From assembly GCA_028288595.1 (NCBI GenBank), contig JAQBNK010000070.1, positions 1 through 44,162 of the forward strand: DNA of 44,162 nucleotides, written 5' to 3'. The notes beneath the pieces are model-generated. The model searched no databases. It was not told the origin of the DNA and was given only the letters and a program-made list of their open reading frames with translations. The DNA is from Chitinophagaceae bacterium. Lineage in GTDB: Bacteria; Bacteroidota; Bacteroidia; Chitinophagales; Chitinophagaceae. The stretch's first letter is position 1. Every line of letters begins with the position of its first letter. Position numbers and translations under genes: made by a program. Positions 7,302 through 14,225 of the stretch are shown piece by piece.

Positions 7302-7766
7302 TTAAGAGAGGAGACTTTGACGGGCAAGGAATTCAAGTTGTGTATTGGCTTCCAGGAGTTTTTGCGTGAGTTCGTAATTTTCTTTACGCAGCCTGAAGAC
7401 TTCATATGCTTTTTCAATAAAGTTTTTTACCTCATTTTCATTCCACGGCTTGGTTAGATATTTATATATCTGGCCGCGATTAATCGCATCGACCACAGCA
7501 TTGATATCTGTATAACCGGTGATGAGTATCCTAATGGGGTCAGGGTATTTTTCAAGGATCGATTCAAAAAAATCAATACCCGTCAATTTCGGCATACGGT
7601 TATCACTCAAAATTACATGTACTTCATTTTCTGCAAGTATCCTTCTGCCTTCTTCTGCAGACTCGGCCGTATAGACCTGGAAAATACGCCTGAACGATGC
7701 TTTAAAAGCGACGAGATTATTGACTTCATCGTCAATATATAGGACTTTGATATTTTCAGGATTCAT
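7302..7766 (-). CDS. Single-domain response regulator (receiver plus short helix)
   Basis: 154 aa. A receiver domain spans about residues 6-122, with the acidic pair D12/D13 (YIDDE), phospho-acceptor D55 (LSDNRMP), switch residue T84 (ITGYTD) and K106 (LTKPW). A C-terminal helix follows, rich in E, L and Q and probably coiled coil, with no DNA-binding or enzymatic output. The LTGIDFFE and TGYTD pattern is of the RpfG-like receiver subfamily. Its closest relative in the window is the receiver of the REC-kinase at 13095-14225: both begin IKVLY(I/V)DDE, have SFRR, HVI(L/I)SD, and ILITGY. It faces the four-gene unit at 7919-14225 across about 150 bp, so it is a likely partner of those kinases. 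Confidence 0.88.
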   Translation of the reverse strand: MNPENIKVLYIDDEVNNLVAFKASFRRIFQVYTAESAEEGRRILAENEVHVILSDNRMPKLTGIDFFESILEKYPDPIRILITGYTDINAVVDAINRGQIYKYLTKPWNENEVKNFIEKAYEVFRLRKENYELTQKLLEANTQLEFLARQSLLS

Positions 7767-7788
7767 GGGGAGGGACTGAAAATTTATT

Positions 7789-7796
7789 CAAACTTA
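7789..7796 (-). promoter_or_regulatory. Putative -7 element for the response regulator
   Basis: The minus strand reads TAAGTTTG, a perfect TAnnTTTG match, about 23 bp before the ATG at 7766. The purine-rich leader GTCCCTCCCC lies between. Confidence 0.5.
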
Positions 7797-7903
7797 GACA
7801 GAAAAGAAGAAAATAAAAGAGCTTCCCGGGTTTTTAATCCAGATAGTTGAATATTAATATATTTTAAATACTCTTTAAAATGCATTTCCTCGTCTGAATT
7901 TTA

Positions 7904-7913
7904 TTATAATTTG
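7904..7913 (+). promoter_or_regulatory. Possible -7-like element just before the E1/nitroreductase gene
   Basis: TATAATTTG lies immediately before CCGCG and the ATG at 7919. It is off-consensus, because the spacing between TA and TTTG is one or three rather than two bases. If used, transcription would start at or next to the start codon, giving a leaderless message. Weak evidence. Confidence 0.3.
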
Positions 7914-7918
7914 CCGCG

Positions 7919-10231
7919 ATGACCCATTCCTCAACCCCGGTTTCTGAGGTATTACAGACCCGTATTTTACATACTGAGAAGGAAAAAGATATTTATACGC
8001 CAATATTCTTCAGGCTTAATGCACCCGCTGAGCAGCAGCGTTTTTTCAATTTGCTTCAACAATTCCCCCATATCAGGGTGTATGACCAGATTCAATCACA
8101 GTTAAAAGAGTTAGTAAAATCGAGAAAGCCTTCGACCACACTTTCAGCAGCAGAAATTGAAAAAGACATAACTGAAACACTCGGTTCAAAATCTTATCAT
8201 GAATATGGTGTGTGGGTATATTATCCCTGGTGCGACAGGATAGTGCATATCCTGGATGAAGCAGAATTTATTGAATTGCGTACAGACAGGAACCGTTATA
8301 AAATTACCATCCGGGAAAGAGAGATACTCGCCACAAAAAAAATTGGTGTGATCGGTCTCTCTGTTGGCCAATCCGTTTCTCTTACAATGGCGATGGAAAG
8401 ATCTTTTGGTGAATTAAGAATAGCAGATTTTGATGAACTGGAAATAACGAACCTGAATCGTTTAAGAAGTGGTGTTTATAATATGGGAATTAAAAAAACA
8501 GTTCTCGTTGCAAGAGAAATTGCGGAGATAGATCCTTTTTTAAAAGTCACCTGCTTTCATGATGGTATCAGGGAAAATAACCTGGATGATTTTTTATTGA
8601 AGGATGATAAACTTGATTTACTGATTGATGAATGCGATAGCGTTGACATAAAAATAAATTGCAGGATCGCGGCAAAAAAATATGGCATCCCTGTAGTGAT
8701 GGAAGCCAGTGACAGAGGCACAATTGATATTGAAAGATTCGACCTTGAGAATAACCGCCCCATTTTACATGGGTTTATAGAGCACCTCGATATTTCAAAA
8801 TTAAAAGATCTAAAAACGAACGAAGAAAAGGTGCCTTATATTCTTCCGATTGCAGGTGTAGAAACTTTATCCGCAAGGATGAAGGCCTCTGCAATGGAAG
8901 TTGGACAAACCATTTCTACATGGCCGCAACTTGCCAGTGCTGTTACACTGGGTGGTGGTATAACCGCTGATGTATGCAGGAGAATTTTATTAAATCTTCT
9001 GCATCAGTCGGGCCGGTATTTTATCGATATAGAAGAACTGATATCGGACCCTGCACTTCCTCGTAAAAAATTATTTGAAACACAGCCCGAAGAATTAACG
9101 CTGGAAAAAATGAAGTCTCTCGCAGATAAAATTTCCAGTGCAAAAGAGCAAAATAAAATTGATGAAAGTGTCGTGGAAAAACTAGTTGAAGCTGCGGTAA
9201 TGGCGCCTTCAGCCGGAAATAATCAACCGTGGAAATGGTATTTTAACGGGAGCCGTTTATTTCTCTATCATGACAAATTAAGATCGCGTTCTTACGGTGA
9301 TTTTGAAAACATGGCATCTTATATGGCCCTCGGAACTGCGTTAGAGAATCTTCGTTTAAAAGCTGCAGCTGAAAAATTAGAAACAAATATCTCACTGTTT
9401 CCACTGGCACCCGGTGAAATGAATCCTGTCGCCATAATTGAATTTATTGACAATAAAAAGATACCGGTAGATGAGCTAATAAAATATATCGGAGTTCGTT
9501 GCACAAACAGGAACATTGGCAAACCTGCTCTTATCAATCCGGAAATAAAAAAAGAAATTATAGGTGCTGTTACAAACGTACACGGCTCTTCTTTACAATT
9601 AATAGATGAGCAGGGAAAACTAAAACAACTTGCAGGTATTATCAGCAGGGCAGAGAAGTTAAGAATATTTATTCCGGAGGGACATTATGATCTTTTTGAA
9701 AAAGAACTTCGGTGGAGTATTGACGCGGCAGAACAATCAAAAGATGGACTCGACCTTAGAACTTTTGATCTTAGTGCAAGTGAAGCTGTAGGGCTGAGAC
9801 TTGCAAGAGATCCAAAAGCAATTGAATTGATAAGTGAATGGAATGGGGGTGGAGGACTGGAGCGTATAACACGTAAGGCTGTTTTATCATCTTCAGCTAT
9901 TGGCTTTTTAACCATGCCAGGATTCACTCCATCGAATTGTGTAAATGCCGGTATGGCTGTAGAACGTGCATGGTTGACAGCCACAAAAAATCAGCTCGCT
10001 GTTCAACCATTATTAGCACCCTTATTTCATTGGGCGAGGATAGTGTATGGGAAAAAAGAAACAATGCCAGCAGCGATTCGTAACCAATTTCTTGAACTGT
10101 ATGAAGAATTTAAAACGATCGTTGATATGGAACAAAATCAAACCGGTTTATTTCTTTTCAGATTGGGGTACGCGAATGAACCAGCAATAAAATCATTAAG
10201 GTTAGATATTAAAGACACTTATTTTTCCTGA
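7919..10231 (+). CDS. E1-like (ThiF/MoeB) adenylyltransferase fused to nitroreductase, Rv1355c/MoeY type
   Basis: 770 aa, two enzymatic halves. Residues about 137-380 are an E1-like Rossmann domain: VIGLSVGQSVS (modified glycine-rich loop), ADFDELEITNLNR (Asp plus NLNR of the nucleotide site), GIKKT, then YGIPVVMEASDRG. The CxxC zinc pairs common in MoeB/ThiF are not seen. Residues about 415-750 are a nitroreductase-like FMN domain, with MAPSAGNNQPWKW near its start and AGMAVERAWLTATKNQLAV near its end. Residues 1-130 match nothing I know. The fusion is that of the uncharacterised Rv1355c (moeY) family. No molybdopterin genes are near. It heads a unit with a GNAT protein 12 bp downstream and two kinases, which suggests that it helps make a signal rather than a cofactor. 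The substrate is unknown. Confidence 0.82.
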   Translation: MTHSSTPVSEVLQTRILHTEKEKDIYTPIFFRLNAPAEQQRFFNLLQQFPHIRVYDQIQSQLKELVKSRKPSTTLSAAEIEKDITETLGSKSYHEYGVWVYYPWCDRIVHILDEAEFIELRTDRNRYKITIREREILATKKIGVIGLSVGQSVSLTMAMERSFGELRIADFDELEITNLNRLRSGVYNMGIKKTVLVAREIAEIDPFLKVTCFHDGIRENNLDDFLLKDDKLDLLIDECDSVDIKINCRIAAKKYGIPVVMEASDRGTIDIERFDLENNRPILHGFIEHLDISKLKDLKTNEEKVPYILPIAGVETLSARMKASAMEVGQTISTWPQLASAVTLGGGITADVCRRILLNLLHQSGRYFIDIEELISDPALPRKKLFETQPEELTLEKMKSLADKISSAKEQNKIDESVVEKLVEAAVMAPSAGNNQPWKWYFNGSRLFLYHDKLRSRSYGDFENMASYMALGTALENLRLKAAAEKLETNISLFPLAPGEMNPVAIIEFIDNKKIPVDELIKYIGVRCTNRNIGKPALINPEIKKEIIGAVTNVHGSSLQLIDEQGKLKQLAGIISRAEKLRIFIPEGHYDLFEKELRWSIDAAEQSKDGLDLRTFDLSASEAVGLRLARDPKAIELISEWNGGGGLERITRKAVLSSSAIGFLTMPGFTPSNCVNAGMAVERAWLTATKNQLAVQPLLAPLFHWARIVYGKKETMPAAIRNQFLELYEEFKTIVDMEQNQTGLFLFRLGYANEPAIKSLRLDIKDTYFS

Positions 10232-10243
10232 TCATATTTAGCA

Positions 10244-10954
10244 ATGACATCTGTTACTTTTAAAGCCTTTCGTGCAATTGACGATCCTGATGCCTGCCAT
10301 AGGTTTATCCAGGGCCACAGGAGAGTACTTGAGATATTCGACATTGCAATGATCACTTCAAACAAACCAGACTGGATCAGCCATCCGAACACATATGTTA
10401 TTCTCGTAGAATCGGTTGATGATGGAAGAGCTATGGGTGGTGCACGGGTGCAAATAGCAGATAACATAATGGCACTGCCAATTGAAGATGCTGTTGGGAA
10501 AGTAGATAAGAAAATATACGAGATAGTAAAAAATCACAGGCTGGGGCTTACCGGGGAAGCCTGCGGATTATGGAACTCAAGAGAAATTGCAGGTTATGGG
10601 ATCGGAAGTTTTTTTTTAACGAGAGCCTGTATTGCACTGGCACACCAGCTTGGTCTGAAATCATTATTTGCGCTTGCTGCACCTTCAACTGTAAAGATCG
10701 CAACCAATGCAGGATTTTCAATTGAACGCAGCCTGGGAAAAGAAGGCTTTTTTAACTATCCTAAATTAGACCTCGTAGCTACTGCTATGATAGTTCAAAA
10801 TGTATTAACCCTTGGTGCTGCCAGCGAAGAAGACAGGGAACACATATTCGATCTTATGAAGAACCCTGACCAGGTTAGAAAAGAAAGCGGACCTAAGGGA
10901 GAATTGAAAATTATTTACAATCTATCACTCAAGAACCTAAAAAAAGAAGTTTGA
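10244..10954 (+). CDS. GNAT-fold acyltransferase-like protein
   Basis: 236 aa, soluble. The layout resembles the GNAT superfamily: an N-terminal helix with HRFIQGHRRVLE, a strand TYVILVE, GGARVQI (residues 65-71), EACGLWNSREIAGYGIG (105-121), and a C-terminal LGLKSLFALAAPSTVKIATNAGF that matches the usual final helix-strand of GNATs. The order (long N-terminal region, G-G-A-R strand, Glu strand, helix) also recalls LuxI-type acyl-homoserine-lactone synthases, which share this fold, but no full LuxI signature is present. It starts 12 bp after the E1/nitroreductase gene, and its stop overlaps the start of the sensor kinase gene, so these proteins are probably made together. Substrates are unknown. 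Confidence 0.65.
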   Translation: MTSVTFKAFRAIDDPDACHRFIQGHRRVLEIFDIAMITSNKPDWISHPNTYVILVESVDDGRAMGGARVQIADNIMALPIEDAVGKVDKKIYEIVKNHRLGLTGEACGLWNSREIAGYGIGSFFLTRACIALAHQLGLKSLFALAAPSTVKIATNAGFSIERSLGKEGFFNYPKLDLVATAMIVQNVLTLGAASEEDREHIFDLMKNPDQVRKESGPKGELKIIYNLSLKNLKKEV

Positions 10955-13077
10955 AAGCAAAATATATTTTTATCGTCTTACTGCTGAATTTCGTTTCCTC
11001 TTATGGGCAGCCTTTACAATTAATGAACAAGGATAAAGTAGGATTGCGCATGTCCTACCTGGAAGATAAAAAAGGAGCCTACACTATAGAAACTGTTTTA
11101 AAACAACCTTTTATTTCATTATCTACCACTACTCCAAATTTTGGACTTACCAATTCTTTTTATTGGTTAAAGCTTGAGGTTATAAATCATTATGCCGATA
11201 GTAATCTGCTGCTAAAAATTCAAAACGCTTTTATCAATGGAGAGATATATCAAATAACAGGCGGTTCCGTTACAGGGAAACAGCATATCGAAGAAACCAG
11301 TGTAATTAATAAAAGACCTTTTAAAACGCAATATGTTTTATTCAGTTTAAAGATACCGGCAGAAGGTACAGGTACCTATTTTCTAAAAGTGTCTGGGAAT
11401 AATGTATTGGATCTGCCGTTGAACATTGCCCCGCAAACTACTATACTGAATGCGATAAGCCTGGACCAGTTATTCTTTGGAATTTATTTCGGGATCATCC
11501 TGGTCATGTTTTTCTATAATGGATTTATTTATTTAACCGTCAAGGATAACAATTACCTCTATTATGTTTTTTATATCCTGACTGTAGGTATTACTCAGGC
11601 ATGCCTTAAGGGTTATGCAGGGAAATTTGTATGGCCGTCTAATGAATGGTTACTGGTGCAGGGACCTAATTTAGCAATTGCGGCATCAGGAATATTTTCG
11701 ATCCTGTTTGTTTTTAATTTTCTGCACCTTAAACAATACCTGCCTAAGTTATACATGGCATTATCAGGTATTATTGCGGTATATGGCATAGCCATTATTC
11801 TTACGGTTATAAATAAGGATATCGAAGCGCAAAAATTAATGCAGGTGATAGCGGGCATCGGCGCAGTGCTGATTTTTATTTCTGGTATTATTGTTTACAG
11901 GAAAGGATTTAAACCCGCTTTATATTTCAATATCTCGTGGTTCTTTTTTGTAACCAGCGTTATTGTTTACATATTGAAAGATGCCGGCGTATTACCTTAC
12001 AATAATTTTACGAGTAACGTTATTCTTATCGGTTCTGCAATAGAAGTAACCTTACTTTCTTTTGCTCTCGCGGATAAAATCAATACATACAAAAAAGAAA
12101 AAGAACAATCACAGGCTGAAGCGTTAAGGGCACTCAGAGAAAATGAAAGACTAATAAAAGAGCAAAATATTTTTCTCGAAAAGAAAGTGGCAGAAAGAAC
12201 AGAAGAGCTGGAGGGGGCACTCTCAAATTTAAAAGATACACAGGCGCAATTGGTGAGTGCTGAAAAAATGGCTTCACTCGGGCAGTTAACTGCGGGCATT
12301 GCACATGAGATCAACAACCCTATCAATTTTGTAAAATCAAATATCAAACCCTTAAAACTGGATATCCAGGATTTGGTGGAGATCATTAATTCTTACGGTG
12401 AACTGCATAATTCCGATATCTCGGTAATGCCGCAAAAATTAAAAGAGATCGATCAGTTAAAGCAGCAAATAGATGTTGAATTTGTAAAACAGGAATTAAC
12501 TAACCTGATAAAAGGAATTGAAGAAGGCGCTGAAAGAACCGCCGAAATTGTAAGGGGATTACGAACCTTCAGCCGGTTAGATGAAAGCGATATTAAAGTT
12601 GCCAATTTTCATGACGGACTGGATTCAACTCTTGTTTTATTAAAGAACAACATTCCAAAATATATCGACATCAAAAAAGACTATCGATCGAAAGGAATCA
12701 TAGAATGTTTTCCTGGTAAACTTAACCAGGTATTTATGAATGTGCTGAATAATGCTATACATGCCATATCCGGAAAAACGGAAATAAAGAGTAAGGAATT
12801 TATAACAATAACCACGAGAGATATTGCCGATGAACATGCGGTTGAAATAACAATAGCAGATACTGGTACTGGAATGTCGGATGAAGTTAAAAACAAAATC
12901 TTCGAACCTTTCTTTACAACAAAGGATGTGGGAGAGGGAACGGGGCTGGGACTTGCAATTGTTTTTAAGATTGTAGAGCAGCATAATGGCAAAATAGCTG
13001 TAAATTCAGTCGAAGGAAAAGGAACCGAATTTGTATTAACTTTGCCGCTGTCTTTAGCGAGCATAGAAACCAGCTAG
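10951..13077 (+). CDS. 7TMR-DISM sensor histidine kinase
   Basis: 708 aa membrane kinase. It has a signal peptide (about 1-20), a periplasmic 7TMR-DISMED2-like beta domain (about 22-160), seven membrane helices (about 170-375), a coiled coil (380-438), and a HisKA-type motif with H452 (AGIAHEINNPINF). An ATPase domain follows, with NQVFMNVLNNAIHAI (N box), IADTGTGMSDE (G1), EPFFTTKDVGEGTGLGLAI (F and G2). The family senses small extracellular ligands. The start is TTG at 10951, sharing bases with the TGA of the GNAT gene (TTGA). It is preferred because the signal peptide follows at once and AAAAAGAAG lies upstream. This overlap implies translational coupling to the two enzymes, which supports the idea that it detects their product. 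Confidence 0.9.
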   Translation: MKAKYIFIVLLLNFVSSYGQPLQLMNKDKVGLRMSYLEDKKGAYTIETVLKQPFISLSTTTPNFGLTNSFYWLKLEVINHYADSNLLLKIQNAFINGEIYQITGGSVTGKQHIEETSVINKRPFKTQYVLFSLKIPAEGTGTYFLKVSGNNVLDLPLNIAPQTTILNAISLDQLFFGIYFGIILVMFFYNGFIYLTVKDNNYLYYVFYILTVGITQACLKGYAGKFVWPSNEWLLVQGPNLAIAASGIFSILFVFNFLHLKQYLPKLYMALSGIIAVYGIAIILTVINKDIEAQKLMQVIAGIGAVLIFISGIIVYRKGFKPALYFNISWFFFVTSVIVYILKDAGVLPYNNFTSNVILIGSAIEVTLLSFALADKINTYKKEKEQSQAEALRALRENERLIKEQNIFLEKKVAERTEELEGALSNLKDTQAQLVSAEKMASLGQLTAGIAHEINNPINFVKSNIKPLKLDIQDLVEIINSYGELHNSDISVMPQKLKEIDQLKQQIDVEFVKQELTNLIKGIEEGAERTAEIVRGLRTFSRLDESDIKVANFHDGLDSTLVLLKNNIPKYIDIKKDYRSKGIIECFPGKLNQVFMNVLNNAIHAISGKTEIKSKEFITITTRDIADEHAVEITIADTGTGMSDEVKNKIFEPFFTTKDVGEGTGLGLAIVFKIVEQHNGKIAVNSVEGKGTEFVLTLPLSLASIETS

Positions 13078-13094
13078 CCTAAAGCCCCTTACCA

Positions 13095-14225
13095 ATGAAT
13101 ACGTCAGACAAACAAATTAAGGTACTGTACGTTGATGACGAGGAAAACAATCTCCTGGCTTTCCAGGCCAGTTTCCGCAGGCGCTTTCAAATCTTTACAG
13201 CATCTTCTGCCGCGGAAAGCATGAAAATATTGAGTGAACACGAAGTGCATGTTATTATCTCTGATCAGCGCATGCCAATTACAACAGGTGTTGACTTCTT
13301 TAAAATTGTGAGAGCTGCTTTTCCTGATCCTACCCGCATTCTTATTACCGGTTACAGCGATATAGAAGTGATCATTGAAGCTATTAACAGCGGCGAAATT
13401 TTCCGGTATATTAAAAAGCCATGGGATGAATATGAATTGCAGACTGCTATTTACAATGCTTACGAAATATACCAGACAAGGAAACAATTAAAGAGCAAGG
13501 TAGTTGAACTTCAAAAAACAAATGATGAACTAAATCGCTTTGTCTACAGTACGTCTCATGATCTGCGTTCACCGCTGGCTTCGGTATTGGGTGTGTTGAA
13601 TCTTGCGAAAATGGAGAAGTCAGTTATCGATCCGAATGATTATATGGGTATGATAGAAACCTGTGTAAATAAGATGGATGCTTTTATTCTTAAGATCATA
13701 GAATATTATAAGAGTATCCGTGTGGATGAATACAATGAGGATATTGATTTTGCTGAATTGTTCCAGGATAGCATCGACCTGTGCCGTATACAAAACCCTA
13801 AAATTGAATTTGATATTTCCATAGACCAGCAGGATATTTTTAAGTGTGATGGATTTCGGTTAGCGGTGATTATGAATAACCTGATATCTAATGCCGTAAA
13901 ATACCAGCGTCCCGGCGAATCGCATCCTGTTGTGCGGTTAAGCGTAGTTTCCGACACCGACTTTGCGCTGATAAAAATAGAAGATAATGGCATCGGCATT
14001 TTGGAAGAACACCTGAACAGTATTTTTAAAATGTTCTTCAGAAGTACCAGTAATGCTACCGGTGTTGGCATCGGTCTGTACATTGTGAAAGAGGCACTGG
14101 CCCGCATTGGAGGAGATATCAGTGTTCACTCAAAGTTTGGCGAGGGCACTGTATTCGAGTTGAAGATACCTAACCAGCTAACCAGTCAAAGCCACAGTAA
14201 TTTCGAGATCGGGGTTCTCAAGTAA
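13095..14225 (+). CDS. Receiver-histidine kinase hybrid (REC-HisKA-HATPase)
   Basis: 376 aa, cytoplasmic. An N-terminal receiver has DD at 14-15, D57 (ISDQRMP), T/S near 86-88 (TGYSD) and K108 (IKKPW). A linker coiled coil (about 127-150) leads to HisKA with H155 (STSHDLRSPL). The ATPase region has VIMNNLISNAVKY, KIEDNGIGI, IFKMFFRS and GVGIGLYIVKEA. It lies 17 bp after the 7TMR kinase, whose likely role is to phosphorylate D57 and so control this kinase; the facing response regulator (7302-7766) is a plausible next acceptor. The last 48 bp overlap the 3' end of dnaE on the other strand. Confidence 0.9.
   Translation: MNTSDKQIKVLYVDDEENNLLAFQASFRRRFQIFTASSAAESMKILSEHEVHVIISDQRMPITTGVDFFKIVRAAFPDPTRILITGYSDIEVIIEAINSGEIFRYIKKPWDEYELQTAIYNAYEIYQTRKQLKSKVVELQKTNDELNRFVYSTSHDLRSPLASVLGVLNLAKMEKSVIDPNDYMGMIETCVNKMDAFILKIIEYYKSIRVDEYNEDIDFAELFQDSIDLCRIQNPKIEFDISIDQQDIFKCDGFRLAVIMNNLISNAVKYQRPGESHPVVRLSVVSDTDFALIKIEDNGIGILEEHLNSIFKMFFRSTSNATGVGIGLYIVKEALARIGGDISVHSKFGEGTVFELKIPNQLTSQSHSNFEIGVLK

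Follow-up and report, generated by a model that had tools for sequence, protein, structure and literature searches.

A LuxI-fold acyltransferase, an exchangeable tailoring enzyme and a co-exchanged sensor kinase: a probable small-molecule production-and-response cassette in Bacteroidota

Gene sets in which an acyl amino acid synthase lies beside a ThiF cyclase and a flavin oxidase have been described as TrzAS (Rv1356c-Rv1355c) in Mycobacterium and Rhodococcus, OxzAB in Pseudoalteromonas rubra and TyzACB in Mycobacterium tuberculosis (Mtb) (PMC12856293, PMC10404671). N-acyl oxazolones are made by such a gene pair in Mycobacterium and Rhodococcus: TrzA and TrzS (identical with Rv1355c) convert L-tryptophan and acyl-CoA to N-acyl tryptazolone by N-acylation, ATP-dependent cyclisation in the ThiF domain and O2-dependent desaturation in the flavin domain, and the role of N-acyl oxazolones, whose ring does not survive acid or methanol, is termed a major unresolved question in that paper (PMC12856293). 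The main texts of both papers contain no occurrence of a kinase. Here we describe a locus at positions 7,302 to 14,225 of a 44,162-nucleotide contig of a Chitinophagaceae bacterium (GCA_028288595.1, JAQBNK010000070.1; the whole stretch is hereafter called the window), in which, unlike in TrzAS, OxzAB and TyzACB, a pair of this kind is locked to a 7TMR-DISM histidine kinase and a relay, and in which the ThiF/oxidase slot is exchangeable. We consider it quite probable that the locus is a self-contained small-molecule production-and-response cassette with a swapped specificity block, where the product, its export, its binding and the output are what we infer.

The variable part of another signalling locus, ComQXPA of Bacillus, ends inside comP. 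As in the cassette, signal genes and a histidine kinase share one locus in ComQXPA (PMC4408185, PMC4008528), and comQXP is highly polymorphic among related strains, thereby defining communication groups (PMC4408185). ComX is an isoprenylated peptide, whereas a small acyl amino acid is the predicted signal of the cassette, and the enzymes that modify ComX and those of the cassette come from unrelated families. Since no isoprenyl transferase was found among the five proteins of the locus (Pfam, NCBIfam) and the four operon genes are too closely spaced to admit a peptide gene between them (open reading frames, ORFs, of less than 60 aa elsewhere were not searched), the cassette would work like ComQXPA without being a member of it. 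LuxM/LuxN and CqsA/CqsS, too, pair the synthase of a small molecule with its cognate histidine kinase, which spans the membrane with several helices. The synthase families of LuxM, CqsA and LqsA differ from those of the cassette, their systems have a different sensor domain and no tailoring slot, and we know of no pherotype-like block exchange for LuxM/LuxN, CqsA/CqsS or LqsA/LqsS. The receptors RetS, LadS, SagS (which we take to be a kinase of the 7TMR-DISM class) and RgsP presumably have the same make-up of DISMED2, seven-transmembrane (7TM) and signalling domains as the window kinase, and to our knowledge none of them is encoded together with a synthase for its own ligand. The pairing of synthase and cognate kinase is likewise described for LqsA/LqsS (PMC4669118).

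An earlier note, made from the letters of this DNA alone, had read the locus as four closely spaced plus-strand genes with a divergent receiver gene. ORF calling on the window reproduced all five genes with their strands and spacings: 12 bp between the fusion and GNAT genes, a TTGA overlap between the GNAT and kinase genes (the kinase start being TTG) and 17 bp between the kinase and REC-kinase genes. The source genome has a size of 4.14 Mb and is 98.6% complete, the window being one of its contigs. The features are as follows.

7302..7766, minus strand: stand-alone receiver protein of 154 aa, divergent, candidate relay (Response_reg PF00072, 1.5e-17)
7767..7918, no strand: intergenic region of 152 bp separating the divergent receiver gene from the enzyme operon and presumed to act as promoter region (from reading the sequence)
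7919..10231, plus strand: TrzS/Rv1355c-type fusion by family, with a ThiF-like cyclase (residues ~1-400) and an Acg-type flavin nitroreductase/oxidase (~400-770) (NF005901, PF00899, PF00881)
10244..10954, plus strand: predicted FeeM/LuxI-fold acyltransferase (GNAT), probable N-acyl amino acid synthase (fold match of the predicted structure)
10951..13077, plus strand: 7TMR-DISM sensor histidine kinase of 708 aa with periplasmic DISMED2, 7TM, HisKA and HATPase domains (Pfam)
13095..14225, plus strand: REC-HisKA-HATPase protein (REC-kinase) of 376 aa, cytoplasmic relay kinase (Pfam)
7919..12079, plus strand: enzyme genes and sensor half of the histidine kinase (to residue ~350-376), a putative exchangeable block as judged from the relatives, with no exchange observed in the window

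The assignment of the fusion, in which the earlier note had seen an E1-like and a nitroreductase domain in one protein, is carried by Pfam matches to ThiF (PF00899, 2.8e-13) and Nitroreductase (PF00881, 3.6e-10), and by a match over residues 18-766 to the NCBIfam model NF005901 ('Rv1355c family protein') at 789.6 bits against a cut-off of 476. A search of the PDB returned Acg (2ymv, 5.4e-6) and TcdA-type proteins, and among the NCBIfam matches are ThiF/MoeB superfamily models. By family, the fusion is thus an oxazolone synthase of the Rv1355c/TrzS type (ThiF cyclase plus flavin oxidase), its product being predicted; TrzS itself belongs to the same fusion family. Residues shown to matter in M. 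smegmatis TrzS are D217, R540 and Q651. The ThiF aspartates D170, D172, D240 and D265 are common to three actinobacterial relatives and to at least 99% of 142 Bacteroidota fusions, and R582 (91%) is a candidate counterpart of TrzS R540, the numbering against M. smegmatis TrzS being mapped inexactly. The closest ThiF domain among the best 80 of at least 592 confirmed stretches is that of Deminuibacter soli (Chitinophagaceae), with 72% identity, records of the window's own genome having perhaps been left out. As in the TrzS pairs, the acyltransferase gene adjoins the fusion; its synthase role is suggested by this context and by its fold.

At E<=0.1 the GNAT matches none of the Pfam and NCBIfam families, and hence neither FeeM (PF21926) nor LuxI. 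Because FeeM membership could not be established from sequence alone, fold comparison was used. The predicted model (pLDDT 91.6) has an acyltransferase fold, in keeping with the label given in the earlier note. Its top match in both structural searches is FeeM 2g0b (Foldseek, E 2.7e-7, TMq 0.58; VIA, Z 16.8, rmsd 2.9, 177 aligned residues), and N-acyl homoserine lactone (AHL) synthases also rank high (BjaI, E 1.9e-6, Z 15.1; LasI, Z 15.6). The window GNAT is thus predicted to share the fold of the FeeM, LuxI and BjaI acyltransferases, sequence-level membership being absent. A profile built from 84 locus GNATs and compared with nine proteins gave a weak match (13.5 bits, i-E 1.4e-5, 125 residues) to the protein in the TrzA position on a Rhodococcus plasmid. 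For TyzA of Mtb the nearest structures are FeeM and BjaI, matching those of the window GNAT (PMC10404671). This fold-level evidence argues for the GNAT being a probable N-acyl amino acid synthase. The GNAT is not placed among the LuxI-type AHL synthases, the resemblance being one of fold with no LuxI family match at E<=0.1.

The three signalling proteins are readily classified, and here too the earlier identities hold. All Pfam matches of the 7TM kinase are over cut-off (7TMR-DISM_7TM PF07695, 3.5e-47; 7TMR-DISMED2 PF07696, 1.5e-18; HisKA PF00512; HATPase_c PF02518), and the REC-kinase matches Response_reg, HisKA and HATPase_c. No output domain was found in the receiver protein, PF00072 being its sole Pfam match at E<=0.1. 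Its likeness to the REC domain of the last gene, noticed earlier, is reflected in a common best NCBIfam model, NF053512 (REC part only, far below cut-off). From their motifs, we take D55 of the receiver, D57 and H155 of the REC-kinase and H452 of the 7TM kinase to be candidate phospho-acceptors. The locus kinase is the only one of its type in the window's genome: a profile built from 30 locus kinases gives it 986 bits, against 187 bits (kinase part only) for the next protein; the genome encodes one further 7TMR-DISM protein.

The synteny comparison proposed in the earlier note showed that these genes belong together. All gene calls in this comparison are ORF-based. When 392 Bacteroidota genomes were searched with NF005901, 11 had a match at E<=1e-60, six of them over cut-off and the window's genome included. 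In all ten of the other genomes the GNAT, 7TM kinase and REC-kinase genes lie beside the ThiF gene, with the receiver protein in eight; the ThiF gene lacks the nitroreductase part in six. A second, named set was obtained by scanning public genome contigs with the ThiF alignment, of which the best 80 of at least 592 confirmed stretches were kept. Culturable carriers in this set are Pedobacter caeni DSM 16990 (L040) and Pedobacter steynii DSM 19110 (L074). A GNAT ORF was found in 75 of the 80, with enough flank in 62, and among these 62 loci the kinase is present in every one, the REC-kinase in 56 and the receiver in 60. As for four of the five named loci with no GNAT ORF, L077 has a GNAT by tblastn, the GNAT start of L043 and L073 falls at the contig end, and L041 ends before it; the fifth, L042, has none.

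The GNAT itself was found in 14 of 392 genomes of a phylum sample, 78 of 396 of a class sample (45 of 204 genera) and 95 of 294 of a family sample (37 of 98 genera), the three samples overlapping; the distribution of the cassette in these Bacteroidota samples is therefore patchy but common. From such genomes 165 loci were fetched, of which 162 have a GNAT ORF and 143 enough flank. In the remaining three, L256 and L277 hold a GNAT by tblastn and L218 is a contig-edge fragment. The set includes 60 of 66 new GNAT genomes, those left out being G1157 and G1012 (contig edge), G1248 (near edge) and G1234, G1291 and G1220 (over-represented genus). A same-strand 7TM kinase lies within 3.5 kb of the GNAT in 142 of the 143 Bacteroidia loci, a REC-kinase homologue within 6.5 kb in 122 and a receiver homologue within 8 kb in 128. 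Of 152 loci, 66 have a histidine kinase gene whose start overlaps the stop of the last enzyme gene, and in a further 47 the two are no more than 30 bp apart, ORF starts being taken as the longest possible.

This linkage bears directly on the simplest alternative, namely that a molybdopterin, thiamine or other primary-metabolism ThiF gene stands beside unrelated kinases by chance. The ThiF/MoeB superfamily matches of the fusion would fit that view, and so would the old gene name of Rv1355c, moeY, and its molybdopterin annotation. Linkage in 142 of 143 loci, in both gene orders, and an equivalog match to Rv1355c, a protein of now known chemistry, make such an explanation extremely improbable. 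Conserved synteny rules out both chance linkage and primary metabolism, and the two enzymes match the published N-acyl oxazolone pathway (PMC12856293).

The relatives vary around this common plan. A tandem GNAT pair occurs in one cassette in L142, L222, L080 and L098, possibly reflecting two signals or a duplication in progress. Many relatives, the window not among them, have an extra protein of 130-150 aa after the REC-kinase, which is a receiver in the three cases tested with Pfam (L017:13163-13588, L026:16242-16637 and L225:11873-12289; 131-141 aa). The REC-kinase is replaced by a REC-PAS-HisKA_3 kinase in L124 and L230 and by a lone receiver in some loci, e.g. L137. In the window, a convergent 1222-aa ORF, which we take to resemble DnaE, shares the 48 bp at its 3' end (14178-14225) with the 3' end of the REC-kinase gene.

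Outside Bacteroidota, our view is confined to five plasmid stretches, including Actinobacteria and Nitratidesulfovibrio. The genome of L068 (G392, a metagenome-assembled genome titled Azovibrio restrictus), which was used as a centre for other phyla, groups with Bacteroidota in the genome set, and its public name is probably wrong; Pseudomonadota and Actinomycetota were therefore seen only through the plasmid stretches. On a Nitratidesulfovibrio vulgaris plasmid (L107:4180-7104), FeeM, ThiF and nitroreductase parts are joined in one 974-aa protein (FeeM Pfam match, 4.8e-44) with no annotated adjoining kinase and with PEP-CTERM and PilZ genes close by. In L090 (JACQAK010000206.1), ThiF, nitroreductase and GNAT form a single ORF by profile labels, in front of a 7TM kinase. 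These two natural fusions support one shared pathway. A ThiF gene on a Streptomyces plasmid (L104:5929-7727), 45% identical to the window ThiF domain, overlaps a GNAT gene that has no match to the locus GNAT profile. On a Rhodococcus qingshengii plasmid (L105:2779-4689), a GGDEF-domain gene adjoins the TrzA-position gene beside an Rv1355c-type fusion; similarly, trzAS of Mtb adjoins cyclic di-GMP genes (PMC12856293).

Comparison of the loci showed that GNAT and 7TM kinase form a constant core, while the tailoring enzyme is exchangeable. Among 147 loci, whose labels were checked by tblastn, the tailoring type is ThiF plus nitroreductase in 70, ThiF in 41, an S-adenosylmethionine (SAM) methyltransferase in 13, an isoprenylcysteine carboxyl methyltransferase in 12, a VAO-type oxidase in three and none in eight ('none' meaning no recognised gene beside GNAT and kinase, accepted by hand). 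For example, in L122 and L123 a 213-aa protein of the isoprenylcysteine carboxyl methyltransferase family (PF04140, 3.5e-18 and 1.5e-19) replaces the fusion in a cassette of otherwise unchanged gene content. L123 also retains, beyond the receiver gene, the 420-aa and thioredoxin-like genes of the window with one extra gene between (by eye, from the first 30 residues), so that the same chromosomal site seems to carry different tailoring genes. Other loci encode a ~254-aa SAM methyltransferase of class I (with PF13649 among its matches) or a flavoprotein of 535-538 aa related to p-cresol methylhydroxylase and eugenol oxidase. All these enzymes would make sense on an N-acyl amino acid, where ring closure or methylation would mask the carboxylate and the nitroreductase or oxidase would desaturate. 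The VAO/p-cresol methylhydroxylase family acts on para-alkyl phenols, which by analogy suggests tyrosine as the amino acid in the oxidase loci.

Methyltransferase, ThiF and nitroreductase genes lie near the N-acyl amino acid (stieleriacine) synthases of Stieleria (PMC12479983). The presence of such tailoring-type genes there, together with the antimicrobial activity of N-acyl tyrosine derivatives (PMC12856293), speaks for a second alternative, likewise one of production and response, in which the kinase senses an N-acyl amino acid that serves as an antibiotic or lipid weapon, and thereby tunes production or self-protection. We regard this autoregulated antimicrobial as an improbable explanation: the block rarely holds genes beyond GNAT, tailoring enzyme and kinase (the exceptions being three in L044 and one in L099), which leaves the block, to which this result is limited, with no conserved gene for transport or immunity. 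Lantibiotic systems offer a parallel, their product being sensed to tune production or self-protection.

Evidence for a tie between enzymes and receptor also came from close relatives. In many close pairs the REC-kinase and the kinase half of the histidine kinase are similar, while the GNAT and/or tailoring gene and the sensor half are strongly different. The p-distances of L196/L202 are 0.07 for the REC-kinase and 0.19 for the kinase domain as compared with 0.35 for the GNAT, 0.62 for 7TM and 0.74 for the ectodomain; the respective values for L019/L220 are 0.09, 0.13, 0.68, 0.60 and 0.78. In L131/L135 the GNAT is kept (0.18), an oxidase replaces ThiF plus nitroreductase and 7TM differs (0.52), as against L131/L132 with a similar GNAT (0.13), the same tailoring and a retained 7TM (0.27).

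The limits of the replaced segment can be followed in the DNA. L191 and L220 align at 78% over 3.5 kb, up to a point 30 bp short of L191's first enzyme gene; the block is then unalignable save for 239 bp until codon 377 of the histidine kinase gene, where alignment resumes at 79%, and gene order inside the block differs. In L131/L135 the GNAT gene aligns at 74% and alignment is lost from its end to kinase codon 354; in L196/L202 it is lost from within the GNAT gene to codon 427; and in L279/L280, which have the same tailoring type and fall outside the pairs counted below (upstream coverage 0.35), from within the ThiF gene to codon 333, bar two patches. Loss may also be partial: in L014/L015 ThiF plus nitroreductase still align at 66%, mainly GNAT and sensor being lost, with alignment resuming at codon 351, and L140/L159 can still be aligned across the ThiF part (71%) and over most of the GNAT (65%). 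Protein identity rises in the bin starting at kinase residue 361. Of 56 close pairs, 38 have an alignable upstream flank, kinase half and REC-kinase; less than 35% of the block is alignable in 17 of these, more than 65% in 14 and an intermediate share in seven. Overall, block replacement is frequent and takes in the sensor half together with part or all of the enzyme genes, while the kinase half, the REC-kinase and the flanks stay. With polymorphic signal genes and sensor half beside a retained kinase half, the relatives thus resemble ComQXPA.

We further asked whether the sensor follows the type of product. Within clusters of similar kinase domains, GNAT distance correlates with 7TM distance (rho 0.36) and with ectodomain distance (rho 0.31), in both cases with none of 500 within-cluster permutations reaching the observed value, and is unrelated to REC-kinase distance (83 of 500) or kinase-domain distance (325 of 500). 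Changes of tailoring type were then counted on FastTree trees (16 column resamplings of equal size) for 147 loci with kinase, GNAT and assigned tailoring, leaving out L200 (a 648-bp gap with no recognised gene) and L189, L204, L210 and L221 (contig edges). With six states, the 7TM tree requires 23.7 changes (21-28), against 36.0 (31-42) for the ectodomain, 36.8 (32-39) for the kinase domain, 33.5 (31-36) for the GNAT and ~67 for shuffled labels. When the ThiF types are merged, the counts are 8.9 (7-11), 14.2 (11-17), 21.4 (20-23), 17.7 (17-19) and 35, respectively. In the 126 loci with a REC-kinase, its tree requires 29.4 changes (26-31) against 20.1 (18-22) for 7TM, or 16.8 (15-18) against 8.7 (8-10) with ThiF types merged. 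The ectodomain accordingly fits tailoring no better than the kinase domain at six states, and better only after merging. Comparison of same and different tailoring in bins of kinase distance gave differences that were small in the ectodomain (+0.003 to +0.041) and modest in 7TM (+0.014 to +0.056), with no steady direction for GNAT and REC-kinase; the tree-based counts were relied on instead. Overall, the 7TM domain follows the tailoring enzyme better than do the ectodomain, kinase domain, REC-kinase or GNAT, and the simplest reading is that 7TM contacts the tailored part of the product.

Co-exchange and the fit of 7TM to tailoring type together point to the product as the ligand of the kinase. 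They also bear on a third alternative, in which regulation is blind to the product: the kinase pair would sense an outside cue (stress, surface or nutrients) and switch on an oxazolone lipid pathway. This view can draw on oxazolones being tied to stress and induced by antibiotics in several Proteobacteria (PMC12856293), and on the reported response of SagS to extracellular glucose-6-phosphate (PMC8544897). If it held, the sensor should have evolved along with the host lineage and the remainder of the kinase; the sensor half is instead co-exchanged and tracks the tailoring enzyme, and we consider product-blind regulation unlikely. The proposal of the earlier note, that the kinase senses a product of the two enzymes as one production-and-response unit, has thus gained support from linkage, the match to the oxazolone pathway, co-exchange and the 7TM fit.

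The mechanism we propose combines what was computed here (which genes are present, their folds and families, their linkage, and how the tailoring enzyme is exchanged, also jointly with the sensor half) with the acylation and cyclisation/desaturation steps reported for homologues (PMC12856293). The FeeM/LuxI-fold GNAT would acylate an amino acid, which is probably aromatic; the ThiF domain would activate the carboxylate with ATP and close the oxazolone ring, and the flavin domain would desaturate. In other members, capping and desaturation would be performed by other enzymes or omitted. The neutral, lipophilic product may then reach the membrane or periplasm and be bound by 7TM (perhaps also DISMED2) of the cognate kinase, which would signal, presumably from H452, to D57 of the REC-kinase and D55 of the receiver, and on to targets that lie beyond the locus. 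A specificity block made up of synthase, tailoring enzyme and sensor half would be inherited and swapped wholly or in part, and since kinase half and relay are kept, lineages would carry different 'dialects'. A cognate synthase and receptor would thus be co-inherited in one locus, as in a quorum-sensing system, their cognate nature being suggested by co-variation. The product may also be secreted and act in a density-dependent manner, which would make the cassette the quorum-sensing system that the earlier note thought possible.

Several observations weigh against this proposal. The exception among the 143 loci, L281, is a ThiF relative with no adjoining kinase, and has the weakest GNAT (64 bits). 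L042 (Loclat_bin-10221) has separate ThiF and nitroreductase ORFs with neither GNAT nor kinase nearby; its genome has two further ThiF places in long frames. Two of the three actinobacterial plasmid fusions inspected (L103, L106) have no recognised acyltransferase nearby, the hypothetical proteins beside them showing no match to the GNAT profile. As for the GNAT itself, it has no significant sequence match to FeeM in Pfam and PDB sequence searches, generic GNATs tie with FeeM in VIA (1xeb, Z 16.4; ElaA 5z6n, Z 15.9), and the fold is common (250 chains at E<=0.001). No DNA-binding output is found among the five genes of the locus by Pfam. The compared close pairs share genomes and are hence not independent. 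Moreover, one of two control 7TMR-DISM orthologue pairs (L300/L299, from the same genomes, G439 and G515) also has a less conserved sensor, albeit a milder case: the first control pair is fairly even (57-75% per 60-residue bin in the first 420 residues, 67-90% after), and in the second the sensor shows 32-72% against 72-95% in the kinase part, as compared with 25-47% against 70-88% in the locus kinase. Fast sensors are therefore partly ordinary, the special part being co-exchange with the enzyme genes. Finally, tryptazolones are reported to be more abundant inside cells, which is unusual for a secreted signal, unlike their N-acyl tryptophan precursor, found mainly in the supernatant (PMC12856293), and in Mtb, C12 tyrazolone was confined to the cell pellets (PMC10404671).

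The top-ranked open-access full-text matches included no report that connects the biosynthesis of oxazolones or N-acyl amino acids with a histidine kinase in Bacteroidota, nor did a dedicated synthase-receptor system of this kind in Bacteroidota appear among the matches listed. On balance we lean towards a new class of chemical communication, widespread in Bacteroidota, with a core of LuxI-fold synthase and 7TMR-DISM kinase, in which a plug-in tailoring enzyme sets the dialect and the 7TM half is swapped along with it. Bacteroidota are abundant in soil, water and animal guts. If true, this would be the first evolutionary evidence that N-acyl oxazolones are signals, and a receptor kinase genetically locked to their biosynthesis would offer a direct assay for their role. 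The exchangeable tailoring enzymes and the 7TM domains that change with them would likewise provide many natural enzyme-receptor pairs from which to learn how a seven-helix kinase reads a small lipid.

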